Below are positions 2,478-38,007 of a stretch of 40,180 nucleotides of DNA, piece after piece (the first letter of the stretch is position 1; every line of letters begins with the position of its first letter). The notes under the pieces are model-generated. The model made no database searches. It saw nothing but the letters and a program-made list of their open reading frames with translations, and was not told the DNA's origin. Source of the DNA: a virus; the IMG/VR virus record IMGVR_UViG_3300030329_004267, positions 6,906 to 47,085 of that record; one strand, written 5' to 3'. The translations under genes were made by a program, and so were the position numbers.

Positions 2478-4043
2478 GTGGCCAACTTAAACCTTAATGG
2501 CAATGTCAGTAAAAATGAAGAAACACTTCATCTTGCTTATAACGATTTAATAACTTTCGGAAAATTATTTTCCCCACAAGATTTTTTGGCGTCTGCGACG
2601 CCCCCATTCCACGAGGAAGTGGGTAAAAAACTTTTAGATAAAAAAGTACAACAATTAGCTCTAGTTTTGCCTAGAGACCATGCTAAATCTACTTTAGCTG
2701 CTACTGCAATTCTTCATCGTATGTTGTTCGCCACTAAAGAAGAGCCTGAATTTATATGTTGGGTTGGTGAAGCTCAAGACCAAGCTACTGATAATGTTGC
2801 GTGGCTTCAAAACCATATATATGATAATCCAGCTATTCACTATTATTTTGGGGACCTTGAAGGAGACAAATGGACTAAAACTGAGTTTACTACAAAAAAT
2901 GGTTGCAGAATGATTGCTAAGGGTGCTTCACAAAGATTGCGTGGTAAAAAACAGTTATCTACTAGATATACTGGTATTGTTCTTGATGATTTTGAATCAG
3001 AACTTAATACCAAAACCCCTGATTCGAGACAAAATATAAAAGATTGGGTTACAGCTGCTGTATATCCTGCTATTGATTTTGATAAAAAGGGGTTTCTATG
3101 GTGTAATGGAACAATAGTACATTACGATAGTTTTTTAAATAATATAGTGAGAAGTTATCAGGAAGCAGGAAAAACAGGCGAAGAATATTCGTGGGATGTA
3201 CTTACTTATAAAGCTATTCTTGATAATGGTAAACCTTTATGGCCTAGTCGTTGGCCTCTTAAAAAACTAGAAGAAAGAAAGCAATTTTATATAGATTCGG
3301 GGGTTGCAGGTAAATTTTATCAAGAATTTATGAATCAAGCAAAATCTCCTGAAGACCAAATATTCCAAGAGGAGGATATTAATGATAACTATTATAAAGG
3401 AAAAATTAAATTTAGCAGTGAAGCGGATTCGTGGTTTTTGGAACTCGATGACGGAACAAAACCTTTTGTTAACATTTATATCGGCGTTGACCCTGCCAGC
3501 ACGCTTAGCTCTAGGGCTGATTATAGTGTTATTATGGTTATTGGTGTTACCGCTGATAATGATTATTACATTATTGAGTATTGGAGGAAACGAGTCTTAC
3601 CAATGGAGTGTGCCGATGAGATATTTAAAATCGCTAAACGATACTCGCCAATCAGAAGAATAAATATTGAAACTATAGCATATCAAGAAATGCTTAGAGA
3701 TTATATAATGAAACGCTCTAAAAAAGAGGGATTATTTCTTCCTGGCATTCATAAAGGTATTAAAAATTATGGAAATCAGAAAAAGAAAGATAGATTATTT
3801 GAAGGGCTTCAACCTATGTTTAAAGCTGGAGCTGTTCATTTAAAAAAGAATATGCATGAGTTTATTGGAGAGCTTCTTGATTTCCCTAAAGGGTCTCATG
3901 ATGATTGCATAGATGCATTTTGGTTAGCTACTCAATTTGCAAAAGGTAACCCAAGTGCAGGAAAAGTTGTAAAAGAAAAAGGAAAAAAGGGTTGGTTCAG
4001 AAGGAAAAAGCGCTATAATTGGATTTCTGGAACTAGAATATAA
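2478..4043 (+). CDS. terL: Terminase large subunit (packaging ATPase and nuclease)
   Basis: Motor that pumps DNA into the prohead through the portal and cuts the concatemer. The ATPase domain shows a terminase-type deviant Walker A (LPRDHAKSTL, residues about 64-73, Lys70) and a Walker B with catalytic glutamate (IVLDDFE, about 167-173). The RNase H-like nuclease domain has its acidic residues in IGVDPAS (about 335), NIETIAY (about 395) and SHDDCIDAF (about 474). The 521-residue length is normal. The start is GTG, directly after the preceding stop, with no Shine-Dalgarno sequence of its own, consistent with translational coupling. The lysine/arginine-rich C-terminus may contact portal or DNA. 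Confidence 0.95.
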   Translation: MANLNLNGNVSKNEETLHLAYNDLITFGKLFSPQDFLASATPPFHEEVGKKLLDKKVQQLALVLPRDHAKSTLAATAILHRMLFATKEEPEFICWVGEAQDQATDNVAWLQNHIYDNPAIHYYFGDLEGDKWTKTEFTTKNGCRMIAKGASQRLRGKKQLSTRYTGIVLDDFESELNTKTPDSRQNIKDWVTAAVYPAIDFDKKGFLWCNGTIVHYDSFLNNIVRSYQEAGKTGEEYSWDVLTYKAILDNGKPLWPSRWPLKKLEERKQFYIDSGVAGKFYQEFMNQAKSPEDQIFQEEDINDNYYKGKIKFSSEADSWFLELDDGTKPFVNIYIGVDPASTLSSRADYSVIMVIGVTADNDYYIIEYWRKRVLPMECADEIFKIAKRYSPIRRINIETIAYQEMLRDYIMKRSKKEGLFLPGIHKGIKNYGNQKKKDRLFEGLQPMFKAGAVHLKKNMHEFIGELLDFPKGSHDDCIDAFWLATQFAKGNPSAGKVVKEKGKKGWFRRKKRYNWISGTRI

Positions 4044-4086: not shown

Positions 4087-6114
4087 ATGATAAAAGAAGA
4101 TAAAAGAGCAAAAGCTATAAAAGATTTTCATAGACGTTGGACTGATGCACGTAAAGATTGGGAAGCAGCAGCAAGAGAAGATGTAGATTTTTATTTAGGA
4201 AATCATTTTTCTCCTGAAGAAGTTGATGCGTTACAAGAACGTAATCAGTCAAGTATGCCAATGGATAGACTTTATTCAGCTATAGAACAATTTAAAGCTA
4301 TAATAACATCTAAACCTCCTAAATTTTCTGCTGTAGCTAGAGAAGATTCTGATAATAAATTAGCAAATATATGGAAAACTTTATTAGAATATATATGGGA
4401 CATATCAGATGGAGACGAAGTTTTTAAACAATCTGTTCATGATTATGCTGTTACAGGTCTTGGATATTTTTATGCTTATGTAGATAAAGAAGCTGATTAT
4501 GGTAGAGGTGAAGTTAAATTTTCAAATATAAATCCATTTAGAGTTGCAGTAGACCCAAATTCTAGGCATAGATATTTTGATGATGCTTCTGGAATAGCGG
4601 TATCTAGCATCTTAACTAAATTTCAGTTATTAGATTTATACCCTCAATTATTAGAAGTACCCGAAGGTCAAGAAAAGCAGTTAATAGATTTAATTGAAAC
4701 AATGCGTGATGATGAAGATTATCCTAATTCTACTAATAAATATACATCTCAATCATTTACTCCAGATGTTGTTAAAGATTATGACACATCTCAACAGTCT
4801 GAAAAATATAGGCTTATAGAATTTTATTCTAAAGTAAAAGTCCCTTATTATAGAGTAGCTAATATGCAAACAGGTCAAACTCAAGTTATTGACCAAGAAG
4901 GATTAGAAGTATTAATGTCTCAAAAAGAAGTTGTTGAAGCTCAAAAACAAGGTTTATTAGATTTTGTTCAAGTTCAACAAACTAGAATTAAACAAAGTTG
5001 CGTTCTTGGGCAAATAGTTTTATACGAAAGAATATTAGATACAGATACATATCCTGTAATTCCTATTCCTAATATTTGGACAAATACACCTTATCCGATG
5101 AGCGATGTTAGAAAAAATAAAGATTTTCAAAGGTTCCTCAATAAGACAGTGTCTCTTATTACCTCTCATGCACAGGCAAGTTCTGGTCTCAAACTACTTA
5201 TCCCTCAAGGAAGCGTTCAAGATATTGAAGAGCTTGAAAGGGATTGGGCGAATCCAAATGCTACAATTGAATATGACCCTTCTTTTGGGGAGCCACATTT
5301 TCCTTCACCTCAACCTTTAGCATCGTCAATTATGCAGTTACCTCAGTTAATCGAAAAATATATAGATTTAAATATGGGTATATTTGAAATGATGCAAGGA
5401 AATACAGAAGTTGCTCCTACTACATCTTCAGGAACTATGATGTTGGAAGATTTTGGGCAAAGAAGAAGTAAATCTAAATTACGTGACATTGAAGGAAGTT
5501 TAAAAAGATTAGGAAAGGTTGTTTATAATTTATCTAAATCTCATTATAACTTTGAAAAAAAAGTAAGAATTGTTCAGCCTAATAATGATTTAAATGAATA
5601 TACAATAAATAAAAGATTATATGATGATAAAACTATGGCATTACAGTCTATTGAAAATAATATTACTGAAGGTCAGTTTGATATAAGAGTTATAGGAAAT
5701 TCAACAATGCCTTCTAATAAATGGGGGGAATGGCAAATATATATGGAAGCTTATCAAGCTGGGCTTATCGATAGAACGGAAGCTCTCAAGAAAACAGAAA
5801 TATTTGATAAGGAGGGAGTATTGTCAAGAACTGATGAAATTGCAAAACTTCAAAATATGATAGGTCAGTTACAAGAACAAGTTAAAAAAGTTTCTGGTGA
5901 CCTACAAACAGCTCAAAGAGAGACTGTTCAATCTAATCAAAAGACTGAAGTTGAGAAATTTAAAGGAAGATTAAAACAAATTGAACTAGAAACAAAGTCT
6001 GCTAACAAATTATCTGTTGGTAGGCTAAAAGACACAGTTAACCTCGAAAGGGAGAAAATCAGAATGAATGGGGCCACAGGTCCTGCTGGTGAAACTCCTG
6101 AAGAGACATTGTAA
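4087..6114 (+). CDS. Portal protein (P22-like)
   Basis: Forms the dodecameric ring at the capsid vertex through which DNA enters and leaves. The N-terminal part (KDFHRRWTDARKDWEAAARE, then DFYLGNHF) and the region around residues 540-600 (ITEGQFDIRVIGNSTMPSNK) match the architecture of P22-type podovirus portals, and 675 residues is close to the usual size. Residues about 595-655 are glutamine/lysine-rich and should form a coiled coil, equivalent to the helical barrel or scaffold-contact region. It sits between large terminase and scaffold, the standard order. No Shine-Dalgarno sequence is visible before the ATG. Confidence 0.85.
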   Translation: MIKEDKRAKAIKDFHRRWTDARKDWEAAAREDVDFYLGNHFSPEEVDALQERNQSSMPMDRLYSAIEQFKAIITSKPPKFSAVAREDSDNKLANIWKTLLEYIWDISDGDEVFKQSVHDYAVTGLGYFYAYVDKEADYGRGEVKFSNINPFRVAVDPNSRHRYFDDASGIAVSSILTKFQLLDLYPQLLEVPEGQEKQLIDLIETMRDDEDYPNSTNKYTSQSFTPDVVKDYDTSQQSEKYRLIEFYSKVKVPYYRVANMQTGQTQVIDQEGLEVLMSQKEVVEAQKQGLLDFVQVQQTRIKQSCVLGQIVLYERILDTDTYPVIPIPNIWTNTPYPMSDVRKNKDFQRFLNKTVSLITSHAQASSGLKLLIPQGSVQDIEELERDWANPNATIEYDPSFGEPHFPSPQPLASSIMQLPQLIEKYIDLNMGIFEMMQGNTEVAPTTSSGTMMLEDFGQRRSKSKLRDIEGSLKRLGKVVYNLSKSHYNFEKKVRIVQPNNDLNEYTINKRLYDDKTMALQSIENNITEGQFDIRVIGNSTMPSNKWGEWQIYMEAYQAGLIDRTEALKKTEIFDKEGVLSRTDEIAKLQNMIGQLQEQVKKVSGDLQTAQRETVQSNQKTEVEKFKGRLKQIELETKSANKLSVGRLKDTVNLEREKIRMNGATGPAGETPEETL

Positions 6115-6884: not shown

Positions 6885-8216
6885 ATGGCTACTTATAATA
6901 GTGGACAAGTAAAATTCGGTACTCCTGGTGCGGTAATTGATAGTACGATACCATCAAGAAGACTGTATGACTTTAGTGATAGAGTCGCAGAGTTATCCCC
7001 AGAAGAGTCTCCGTTTTTTGTATATTTGTCAAAAGTAGGAAAAGTTCCAACATCAGATAGTCAATTTAGATTTTTAGAAGATAGAACTAAAATATCTATA
7101 ACTGATAGAACTTTTACTACATCAAGTAATTTAGGAGCTATAGCAGAAGACACTACAGACACTATGACTGTATCTTCTTCACCATGGTTAATTAAGGGAA
7201 TGGTTGTGATGGTTTCATCAACTATTTCTGGTATGGGTGAAGGAACAAATGCAGCAACATGTGTAATTACTGCAGTAAATTCTGCTACAGAGATAGAAGT
7301 TAGATGGTTGCGTGAAAATTCAACATCAGCAGTTTCTATTGATGGCTCAAGTACAGCTGTAAATTGCCAAGTAATTGGTACAGCTTACGCAGAAGGTTCA
7401 GGCGCTCCAGATGTATGGTCTCAAGAGCTAGACAATGATTATGGTTATACCCAAATCTTTAAAACAGCTTGTGAAATGTCTAATACAGCTAGAGCAACAG
7501 TTTATCGTGGATATGCTGATGAATGGCAAAGAATATGGAATCTTAAATTAAGAGAACATAAAATGGATATTGAAAGAGCAATGCTTTTTGGTCAAAGAGC
7601 TTCAGTTGGTGGAACACAGTATACTGAAGGTATCGTTGGTCATATTATTGCTGAAGGTGGAACTCCTGCAGTAGATTCAACTCAGCTTTCTTATTCAGAA
7701 GGTAAAGCTTATCATAAATCTATAGCTTCAGGCAGTATGACATATGATAACTTCCTTTCTGACTTAGAGGTTGTGTTTGACCCTGCTAGAGGTGGAGCAT
7801 CTTCTAAATTGGCTTTATGTTCTTTACCTGTAATTTCTTTATTTAATAAGCTTGGAGATGGCGCTTTTGTTGATGCTTCATTGGGTCACAGCAGCAATCC
7901 TTTTGCTTATAATTTTGAATCAGGCAAAGGTTCTTTCGGTCATAAAGTGATGAAAATAGAAACAGTTCATGGTGACATGACTCTTGTAAAAGAGCCTTTA
8001 TTTAGAGGACTAGCTTCTACTTTTATGGCTTTAGTTGATTTAGACCATGTATCTTACCGACCTTTAGTTGGTAACGGTGTGAATCGTGATACATCAATAA
8101 CTACTAATGTACAACAAGCTGACGAAGATTTACGAAAAGATATGATTCTAACAGAAGCAGGTCTTGAAGTTTCTCTTCCTGAAACTCATGCGTTGTTTAA
8201 CATAGAAGGAGCTTAA
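6885..8216 (+). CDS. Major capsid protein (SU10/DUF5309-like)
   Basis: Forms the icosahedral shell; expected to have the HK97 fold. The N-terminal motif (SPEESPFFVYLSKVGKVP, then FRFLEDR) is typical of the family named after the SU10 major capsid protein. Residues about 85-160 are Ser/Thr/Val-rich and look like an inserted beta domain (MTVSSSPWLIKGMVVMVSS), probably on the capsid surface. The C-terminal half has the alpha/beta pattern of the P and A domains (ALCSLPVISLFNKLGDG, MKIETVHGDMTLVKEP). Length is 443 residues. A strong AAGGAGA site precedes the ATG, and the gene follows the scaffold. Confidence 0.87.
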   Translation: MATYNSGQVKFGTPGAVIDSTIPSRRLYDFSDRVAELSPEESPFFVYLSKVGKVPTSDSQFRFLEDRTKISITDRTFTTSSNLGAIAEDTTDTMTVSSSPWLIKGMVVMVSSTISGMGEGTNAATCVITAVNSATEIEVRWLRENSTSAVSIDGSSTAVNCQVIGTAYAEGSGAPDVWSQELDNDYGYTQIFKTACEMSNTARATVYRGYADEWQRIWNLKLREHKMDIERAMLFGQRASVGGTQYTEGIVGHIIAEGGTPAVDSTQLSYSEGKAYHKSIASGSMTYDNFLSDLEVVFDPARGGASSKLALCSLPVISLFNKLGDGAFVDASLGHSSNPFAYNFESGKGSFGHKVMKIETVHGDMTLVKEPLFRGLASTFMALVDLDHVSYRPLVGNGVNRDTSITTNVQQADEDLRKDMILTEAGLEVSLPETHALFNIEGA

Positions 8217-8218
8217 TT

Positions 8219-8671
8219 ATGAGAAGTGATGTATTAAACTCAAGTAGTAATAGCTACGGTCAACAAGTAGACAATTGGAAGTTTTCAGCTAAAACTGCAG
8301 CTTTTACGGCGGCTGACGGATTTTGTTATCTCGTTACTGACGCAGATGGTTGCGCTGTTACTTTACCTGCACCAAATGTTGGAGATAGAATTAAAATAGT
8401 TTTTGGATGTGTTACAAGTAATAATCATACTATTACATGTGATGCAACAACTACTTTATTTAGTGGATATTCTCTTATGTTGGATGCTGATGGTACAGCA
8501 GCTCAATGCAAAGTTTTTGCAGCAGATGAAACAGATGATGATGTTTTCACAATGAATGGTGGGACAACAGGCATTTCTGGAACAGTTGAACTTGTAGGGC
8601 TAAGTGATAAAATGTGGCAAATAGAAGCAGTTGTGTATTCTGAAGGAACTGCAGCTACACCATTTGCATAA
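8219..8671 (+). CDS. Probable capsid decoration or head-fibre protein
   Basis: A 150-residue, almost entirely beta-rich, acidic protein starting three bases after the capsid gene. The pattern (GFCYLVTDADGCAVTLPAP, GDRIKIVFG, then a hydrophobic strand near residue 85) is common in small surface proteins of tailed phages that follow the capsid gene. No catalytic motif is visible. Several cysteines are present (residues about 36, 44, 63 and 74). The function is inferred from position and composition. The next gene is separated by a non-coding stretch with stem-loops. Confidence 0.6.
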   Translation: MRSDVLNSSSNSYGQQVDNWKFSAKTAAFTAADGFCYLVTDADGCAVTLPAPNVGDRIKIVFGCVTSNNHTITCDATTTLFSGYSLMLDADGTAAQCKVFAADETDDDVFTMNGGTTGISGTVELVGLSDKMWQIEAVVYSEGTAATPFA

Positions 8672-8690
8672 TCCGAATAAATAAGGATTA

Positions 8691-8735
8691 ATAGCTTGTA
8701 GAGCTATGGGAGTTATCGTATAAAGGATAGCTCCC
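8691..8735 (+). promoter_or_regulatory. Tandem and competing RNA hairpins after the capsid genes
   Basis: Hairpin A is ATAGCT 8691-8696 with AGCTAT 8702-8707. Hairpin B is a 10-bp stem, GGGAGTTATC 8708-8717 with GATAGCTCCC 8726-8735; it contains one U-G pair that exists only in + strand RNA. A competing stem joins GAGCTAT 8701-8707 to ATAGCTC 8727-8733 and would destroy both. There is no U-run after it, so it is not a classical terminator. It may be an RNA-processing, stability or attenuation element that sets levels between capsid and downstream genes. Confidence 0.5.
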
Positions 8736-8810
8736 GAATCTACTAAAAATATAACTTTAAAATTTAACAACCCATTCACGCACAGCCAGTGCTTAGGGTA
8801 GGAGGAAGAC

Positions 8811-37104: not shown

Positions 37105-37270
37105 CTGTACTCCTTTTGTTATGTTTTTTGCTTTGAGACGCTTGTATTTTCTCAAATTTAACTCTAATACTTTCAAGTAATTGTATCATCTCCTCTACAG
37201 CACCTTCAAGCTTAAATATTCTTCTTTCATGCTTCTCTATATTATTTTCCATATCTATAGCTCTACCCAT
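37049..37270 (-). CDS. Small coiled-coil protein with basic tail
   Basis: A 73-residue protein with a long heptad-patterned helix (NIEKHERRIFKLEGAVEEMI, residues about 9-44) and a Lys/Ser/Asn-rich tail (QSKKHNKRSTDVKKK). AAGGAG stands five bases before the ATG. It is the first gene after the structured RNA at 37292-37367, which could therefore act as its 5' untranslated control element. The function is unknown. Confidence 0.65.
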   Translation of the reverse strand: MGRAIDMENNIEKHERRIFKLEGAVEEMIQLLESIRVKFEKIQASQSKKHNKRSTDVKKKTNNKGAKSNSSGK

Positions 37271-37291
37271 AATTTCTCCTTATTTAAGTTA

Positions 37292-37367
37292 AGACAGCCA
37301 CCCACATCGGTTAAGATAGTTGCGAAGTGTCGCAAAGGTAGGACATTCGGAACGTGAGTGACTGCCT
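37292..37367 (-). ncRNA. Multi-branched structured RNA, unknown family
   Basis: Read leftward. P1: bases 37367-37356 pair with 37303-37292 over 12 consecutive positions. Three of these are G-U pairs that would be A-C mismatches in the opposite RNA, so only the transcribed strand folds fully. P2: 37355-37343, ACGTT/AATGT with a CCG loop, directly stacked on P1. P3: TTGCGA 37335-37330 with TCGCAA 37325-37320, loop CACT. Single-stranded joints of 7 nt (37342-37336) and 16 nt (37319-37304) remain. The element lies between the SSB-like stop and the ribosome binding site at 37276-37281. There is no U-run after P1, so it is not a simple terminator. It could be a 5' UTR switch or an independent RNA. 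Confidence 0.65.
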
Positions 37368-37377
37368 ATAATTATTA

Positions 37378-38007
37378 TTAAAATGGAATTTCATCCAAAT
37401 TAGTTTTTTCTATTGTTTTATCTTTTCCATCTTCCCAAATGTTAAAATATTTAATAACAAGAGGTGTTGTATCAAAACCCTTACTATTCTTATAAGGTCT
37501 CCCATATTTAGTGGTAACCTTAACAGCCTTACCAAGAATTTCTTCCTCAACTATAGAAGGCAATTGTTTAACAGTAACCTCATTACCGTCTATTTCTTTT
37601 TTAACTTCTTTACATTCTAACCCAATGGCTTCGCAAAACTTTAAGTAACCCATATTCATATCAGGTCTTCCCTTAAAGGAATCATTAGGTCCTGGTTCTA
37701 AATATCTAAAAATACCGTCAGACCTTAATTTTCTTCCTATAAACTCTTTACCATCAACCATTTTGTCTTCAACTTTATACTTGTTACCTTCATTTTCTTT
37801 AGCTAACTGAACATAAAAGTTATATATTCTAGCTTTATATTCACCACCTTTAACATCATACACATTAGATTTTATATCAACAATATGTCCAACATATGTT
37901 CCAGGTACTGCTGGTACAAATACATTCTCTTTTTTAGGTGATTTGTTTTCAACGAAAAAACTACTCTCAGTAGAGCTGTCAAAAACATTATCTATTTCGT
38001 TTGTCAT
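37378..38007 (-). CDS. Single-stranded DNA-binding-like protein
   Basis: A 209-residue protein. The C-terminus NLDEIPF matches the acidic, hydrophobic tip of SSB proteins that recruits partners. The middle shows strands of an OB-type fold (TYVGHIVDIKSNVYD, YKARIYNFYVQLAKE, AVKVTTKYGRPY). An alternative is a DUF669-type accessory of phage annealases. It lies directly downstream of the Rad52-type gene, which fits protecting and presenting ssDNA for annealing. AAGGAG lies five bases before the ATG. Confidence 0.75.
   Translation of the reverse strand: MTNEIDNVFDSSTESSFFVENKSPKKENVFVPAVPGTYVGHIVDIKSNVYDVKGGEYKARIYNFYVQLAKENEGNKYKVEDKMVDGKEFIGRKLRSDGIFRYLEPGPNDSFKGRPDMNMGYLKFCEAIGLECKEVKKEIDGNEVTVKQLPSIVEEEILGKAVKVTTKYGRPYKNSKGFDTTPLVIKYFNIWEDGKDKTIEKTNLDEIPF

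Follow-up and report, generated by a model that had tools for sequence, protein, structure and literature searches.

The locus studied here raises the question of what a compact structured RNA does in the gap behind a gene for an SSB-like protein. The window, that is, the whole 40,180-nucleotide stretch of DNA that was analysed, is part of a 47,085-base IMG/VR virus record (IMGVR_UViG_3300030329_004267, positions 6,906 to 47,085). Its leftward operon codes for a PD-(D/E)XK nuclease, an Erf/Rad52-like annealing protein, the SSB-like protein, a protein starting with MGRAIDME..., a DnaB-type helicase, and a RuvC-like resolvase. The ssb gene starts 13 nt behind the erf gene, and the RNA element lies in the 107-nt gap that separates the SSB-like ORF from the one starting at 37270. 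An initial annotation of this DNA had placed the element in that gap, just before a good ribosome binding site (RBS), and both the sequence and the ORF list bear this out. The features of the gap and its flanks are the following:

37378 to 38007, minus strand: SSB-like gene, 209 aa, with an acidic tail ending in DEIPF; the element begins 10 nt past its stop
37290 to 37368, minus strand: whole structured RNA element (ssb 3' intercistronic element), 76-79 nt, fold z = −4.8
37276 to 37281, minus strand: Shine-Dalgarno sequence AAGGAG of the downstream gene, read from the sequence and lying outside the closing stem P1
37049 to 37270, minus strand: downstream MGRAIDME... gene, small and coiled-coil-like, 73 aa, with a conserved start peptide

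The minus-strand RNA from 37288 to 37370 folds at −29.8 kcal/mol (z = −4.8, with 0 of 200 shuffles equally good), against z = −1.6 for the plus strand of the element region, and this agrees with the coordinates, the leftward strand and the closing stem (P1) of the initial annotation. P1 had been described as a 12-bp stem; the stem itself stands, while its length is 14-15 bp: AGGCAGUCACUCAC(G)/(U)GUGGGUGGCUGUCU. Its three imperfect positions are G-U in the leftward RNA only, as had been claimed and as can be read from the sequence. P1 encloses an interior of ~46 nt and is followed downstream by UAACUUAAAUAAGGAG.

The pairing probabilities do not support the three-hairpin geometry that had been drawn for the element. 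The second hairpin, supposedly stacked on P1 (CGUU-CCG-AAUG), has a pairing probability of 0.0 both in the window and in the related locus L001. The third is possible, and a rival hairpin, with which it is mutually exclusive, competes with it; the 7-nt and 16-nt joining strands rest on these uncertain hairpins. The UGUC/GACA pairing of the rival hairpin is also drawn in two loci of the group called class Z below (L132 and L168, 0.69-0.75), and its probability is 0.0 in a third (L133). The parts of the element are listed here:

37353 to 37367, minus strand: P1 5' arm, AGGCAGUCACUCACG; mean pairing probability 0.98, and two changes in L001 retain pairing
37292 to 37306, minus strand: P1 3' arm, UGUGGGUGGCUGUCU; same basis as the 5' arm
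37320 to 37335, minus strand: hairpin UUGCGA-CACU-UCGCAA, the third of the initial annotation; pairing probability 0.50 in the window and 0.71 in L001
37324 to 37348, minus strand: alternative inner hairpin GAA-UGUC/GACA-C-UUC; 0.46-0.47 in the window and 0.23-0.24 in L001
37341 to 37346, minus strand: AUGUCC core motif on the 5' side of the interior; invariant in the window, L001 and L008
37306 to 37311, minus strand: ACCGAU motif adjoining the P1 3' arm; class Z elements resemble the window in the order AUGUCC, GACAC, ACCGAU

Two related phages carry copies of the element at the same place. The copy in L008 is identical and that in L001 has 3 substitutions and a 2-nt indel, which makes 0 and 3 substituted positions out of 76. 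The ssb, dnaB and erf genes of these genomes have diverged far more, at 16-23% of all sites and 25-40% of four-fold sites; at four-fold rates, the probability of finding no difference over 76 positions would be ~2e-15. Two of the L001 changes fall in P1 and keep the pairing (G-U to A-U and C-G to U-G), the third is at the inner edge of P1, and the indel is within the interior. A coding explanation for the element was ruled out, since the 2-nt indel in L001 breaks any frame. Among these three closest phages the unpaired interior is conserved equally to the stem, and this conservation exceeds the need of a plain exonuclease barrier. An exact scan of IMG/VR with the RNA pattern returned three copies only, and the covariance-model search that the initial annotation had proposed recovered the window, L001 and L008 and nothing beyond these three. 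The window type consists of only two distinct sequences, so it offers too few for covariation. In the closest relatives, two further multi-hairpin RNA-like folds were seen outside the SSB slot (L010 586-675 and L008 1411-1500, z about −4), and the window has a second strongly folding segment at 8671-8760 on the plus strand, with two long-stem hairpins (z −9.6, mononucleotide shuffles).

The searches against known RNAs returned no family for the element. Rfam 15 gave 0 matches in the window at the gathering cut-off, the best hits below threshold had E of at least 0.58 and none was credible, and neither ARAGORN nor Rfam found a tRNA or tmRNA in the window. When the window and 23 related loci were searched with Rfam at gathering and permissive thresholds, only two tRNAs were found. 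The element gave chance-level pieces only in blastn against 50,697 phage records, and the RNA core and the MGRAI start had no match in the contigs of GTDB species genomes.

The gene in front of the element is probably an ssb, judging from the predicted structure of its product. The 209-aa protein is without a sequence match in Pfam, PHROG, PDB or the 50,697 phage records. Its AlphaFold model (pLDDT 86) has bacterial SSB OB-folds as best Foldseek matches (E 0.017, prob 0.97, low TM); 4klk, an SSB-like phage protein of the DUF2815 family, ranks lower. SSBs end in an acidic DxIPF tail, and the 209-aa protein does likewise.

To which gene does the element belong? The MGRAI start peptide, searched in IMG/VR, led to about 75 phage loci, and 60 distinct loci were found with an iterated SSB-like protein profile. 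A stem counted as long when it scored at least 28 on the mRNA strand and lay no more than 330 nt past the SSB-like stop, a definition that includes the window element, with a score of 35.0. This slot analysis was designed after the first examples, and its counts use one fixed score and threshold with controls: a long stem was found in 32 of the 60 SSB loci against 4 of 180 shuffled controls (p = 5e-19), and, within the same loci, in 15/28 gaps at the SSB slot against 4/104 other same-strand gaps (p = 4e-9). The remaining 28 of 60 loci, where a long stem was not detected within 330 nt of the stop, indicate that the element is not essential everywhere or is sited further away. Furthermore, in L118, L145, L156, L192 and L133 the element sits behind ssb, or behind ssb and a 49-aa HTH ORF, with another gene next. 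The element thus accompanies ssb through changes of the following gene and is tied to it: it belongs to the preceding SSB-like gene rather than to the following gene starting at 37270, to which it had been assigned. The involvement of the SSB-like product, also suggested at that time, gains circumstantial support, as the elements track the SSB-like gene across the phage family.

In many relatives, among them L133, L192, L024, L025 and L100, ssb and the element are separated by this conserved small HTH ORF of about 49 aa (...RATVYRHI.K). It resembles the C-terminal HTH of recombinases and is missing directly behind ssb in the window.

The same comparisons bear on the idea of a ligand-sensing riboswitch, or another cis regulator, in the 5' leader of the MGRAI gene. 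A good RBS does follow the element and the two inner hairpins compete; against this, the predicted fold leaves the RBS free, with no predicted pairing between the two, Rfam contains no matching riboswitch, and the element is found behind ssb even where the downstream gene is different. We consider this explanation very improbable.

The element is real and is an RNA of the leftward operon. Across strand-neutral stems, G-U pairs number 75 and A-C pairs 11 (p = 7e-13, a value that is too small because related loci are not independent, although the direction is clear). The G-U argument of the initial annotation thus holds as far as selection on one strand is concerned; by itself it does not separate RNA from single-stranded DNA, because G-T wobbles occur in single-stranded DNA too. 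In favour of RNA, the preferred strand in the 60 SSB loci is the coding one, with a long stem in 32/60 on the sense and in 3/60 on the antisense strand (p = 3e-9). This preference over the whole set makes it very improbable that the element is instead a single-stranded DNA structure exposed in replication, such as a priming, packaging or recombination site, even if its position among recombination and replication genes and the tolerance of single-stranded DNA for G-T wobbles would suit such a site. The earlier proposal of an unassigned, structured leftward RNA, absent from Rfam and selected on the mRNA strand, is supported.

The elements behind ssb were sorted by their interiors into classes X, W, Y, Z and B and the window type. 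Class X comprises 9 loci with the core AUGUCA...UUUAGAAA; its P1 is 100% paired and shows two-sided (compensatory) changes at 8 of 15 pairs. Class W has AGC...GCU and then an unpaired GUCGGA, with two-sided changes at 6/17 pairs, class Y has C/A-rich loops, class Z (L132, L133, L168 and L175) carries AUGUCCGCAAGACAC, and class B carries CGUGAG...ACCUUUC. Mapped on the tree of the SSB-like protein, the class labels require 15 changes, where shuffled labels require 30.8; class X forms one clade and the window type another, the latter being sister to L024/L025. As the labels follow this tree, the elements are mainly inherited with ssb while their interior turns over, and all the classes likely share a common descent, as judged from the slot.

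The relation of the window type to class Z was also considered. Their local alignment has p of about 0.003 against shuffles, over 15 comparisons. Even without filters, the window-type covariance model failed to recover class Z or L024, so that the link rests on the slot, the order of the motifs and the SSB phylogeny, and we do not claim one family. The MAFFT alignment of the window and class Z misplaces the P1 3' arms and was left unused for covariation, and a pattern scan for class Z added only coding chance matches (L202-L205). Near the 5' side of the interior, AUGUC is present in 6 of 21 clade representatives, in regions chosen post hoc, whereas any 5-mer does so in 5 of 400 shuffles; this weakly suggests that an AUGUC core recurs among largely clade-specific interiors.

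Three elements that had been candidates for the window family (L019 4742, L024 7630 and L025 10238) were dropped, as they belong to the other class, CGUGAG...ACCUUUC, which occurs in several slots. This P1-closed, multi-branched class was located at about 7630-7700 in L024, at 10238-10305 in L025 and at 4742-4808 in L019, and also behind ssb in L165, L141, L162 and L109; unlike the window type it is found in several gene slots and may be mobile. Longer P1-closed elements sharing CCGUGAGGnCAGCCAAGGGCUUU were noticed in L008 (about 5850-5960), L024 (519-620) and L025 (about 3600-3690); the sharing is clearest in L008 and L024, and the L024 copy begins just behind a tRNA gene (445-516). On the minus strand of L137, at about 150-700, several P1-closed structured elements follow one another in a single long stretch of non-coding sequence; the HTH ORF in front of them resembles the one that relatives have behind ssb.

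A long stem that is retained, contents that change, and a fixed position behind ssb are best fitted by a 3' processing or stability element. We therefore tentatively read the element, with a probability of roughly 40%, as an intercistronic element, 3' in the ssb message, that governs processing and stability of that message and is perhaps bound by a protein too. The stem at the 3' end of the message would be an RNase processing site, a block to 3'-5' exonucleases, or both, so that the message from which SSB is made would outlast that of the following genes. In the interior, the clade-specific core (AUGUCC...GACAC...ACCGAU in the window type) could be the docking site of a protein or nuclease. 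Clade-specific interiors together with a recurring long stem are consistent with a function that resides largely in the stem, and how strictly each clade conserves its interior suggests a bound partner in addition. The equally conserved unpaired interior and the 28 loci in which a long stem was not detected weigh against the reading as a 3' processing or stability element. A more ambitious reading, possible though less probable, sees in a large uncultured phage family a dedicated, rapidly evolving RNA switch or docking site behind ssb whose interior is re-invented in each clade (the window type and classes X, W, Y, Z and B); the stem and the slot would persist and the interior would change because the RNA co-evolves with a partner from phage or host, such as SSB or a defence or decay factor.

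The tight linkage to the SSB-like gene is also what an autogenous operator would show, with the SSB-like or the 49-aa HTH protein binding the core and repressing or tuning the translation of ssb or of the downstream genes. The gp32 proteins of T4 and RB69 repress their own mRNA, through targets that diverged in sequence and are still recognised (PMC535899), and clade-specific interiors co-evolving with SSB would fit such a pattern. This explanation is nonetheless doubtful, given that the gp32 operators lie in the 5' leader and the element behind the gene, that the downstream RBS is outside P1, and that the window retains the element with no HTH ORF directly behind ssb.

Alternatively, the operon could release a trans-acting or stable small RNA, e.g., an sRNA, a decoy or a counter-defence RNA. 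The element is compact, closed by P1 and highly conserved in its interior, and similar P1-closed elements occupy other slots of related phages, one of them beside a tRNA gene. A strong linkage to a single slot is expected more of a cis element, and no promoter or terminator of its own stands out, with no intrinsic terminator (GC-rich hairpin and T run) at the element, so that a small RNA seems unlikely.

Structured intercistronic RNA is a known kind of thing in phages, while an ssb-linked element with clade-specific interiors in an uncultured phage family is, as far as searched, undescribed in the literature. The RNase III processing hairpins of the T7 type likewise have long imperfect stems between the cistrons of a polycistronic phage message, and the element differs from them in its strongly conserved interior and in that cleavage is here only supposed. 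The DUF2815 RNA (RF03084), a candidate sRNA, takes its name from a family of SSB-like phage proteins; the element scores 14.8 bits against it (E = 3.8, gathering score 41.2), and this chance-level overlap covers only the downstream RBS and the P1 3' arm.

STAXI RNAs, tandem pseudoknots near genes for SSB, topoisomerase, antirestriction proteins and the XerDC integrase (PMC2864571), resemble the element as unexplained structured RNA candidates often found near SSB genes. STAXI has two or three repeated pseudoknots with UUCG tetraloops, whereas the gap here holds a single long-stem element with no UUCG loop and no family at the gathering cut-off. The L17 downstream element, a structured RNA for which a 3' UTR role has been proposed (PMC2864571), belongs to a ribosomal-protein operon of Lactobacillales and Listeria, and its structure is unrelated as far as described.

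The likeness to gene 32 of T4 and RB69 lies in a structured or processed RNA at a phage SSB gene, regulation being a proposal in our case. In T4 the operator sits in the 5' leader and combines a pseudoknot with an A/U-rich tract, whereas the present element has a long stem and follows ssb. No T4 mRNA is more stable than that of gene 32, which RNase E cleaves near the stop codon (PMC3014915); by analogy this would be a precedent for control at this place. As covariance models fail across loci because interiors turn over by clade, the present elements illustrate that a gene slot can lead to structured RNAs which searches by sequence or covariance model miss. Phages need their SSB in quantity and at the right time, and the T4-type gp32 is the only one that we found with well-described RNA-level control; if our reading is true, the ssb 3' element would add a second case, rich in natural variants for comparison, in which to study how SSB dosage is controlled in phages.
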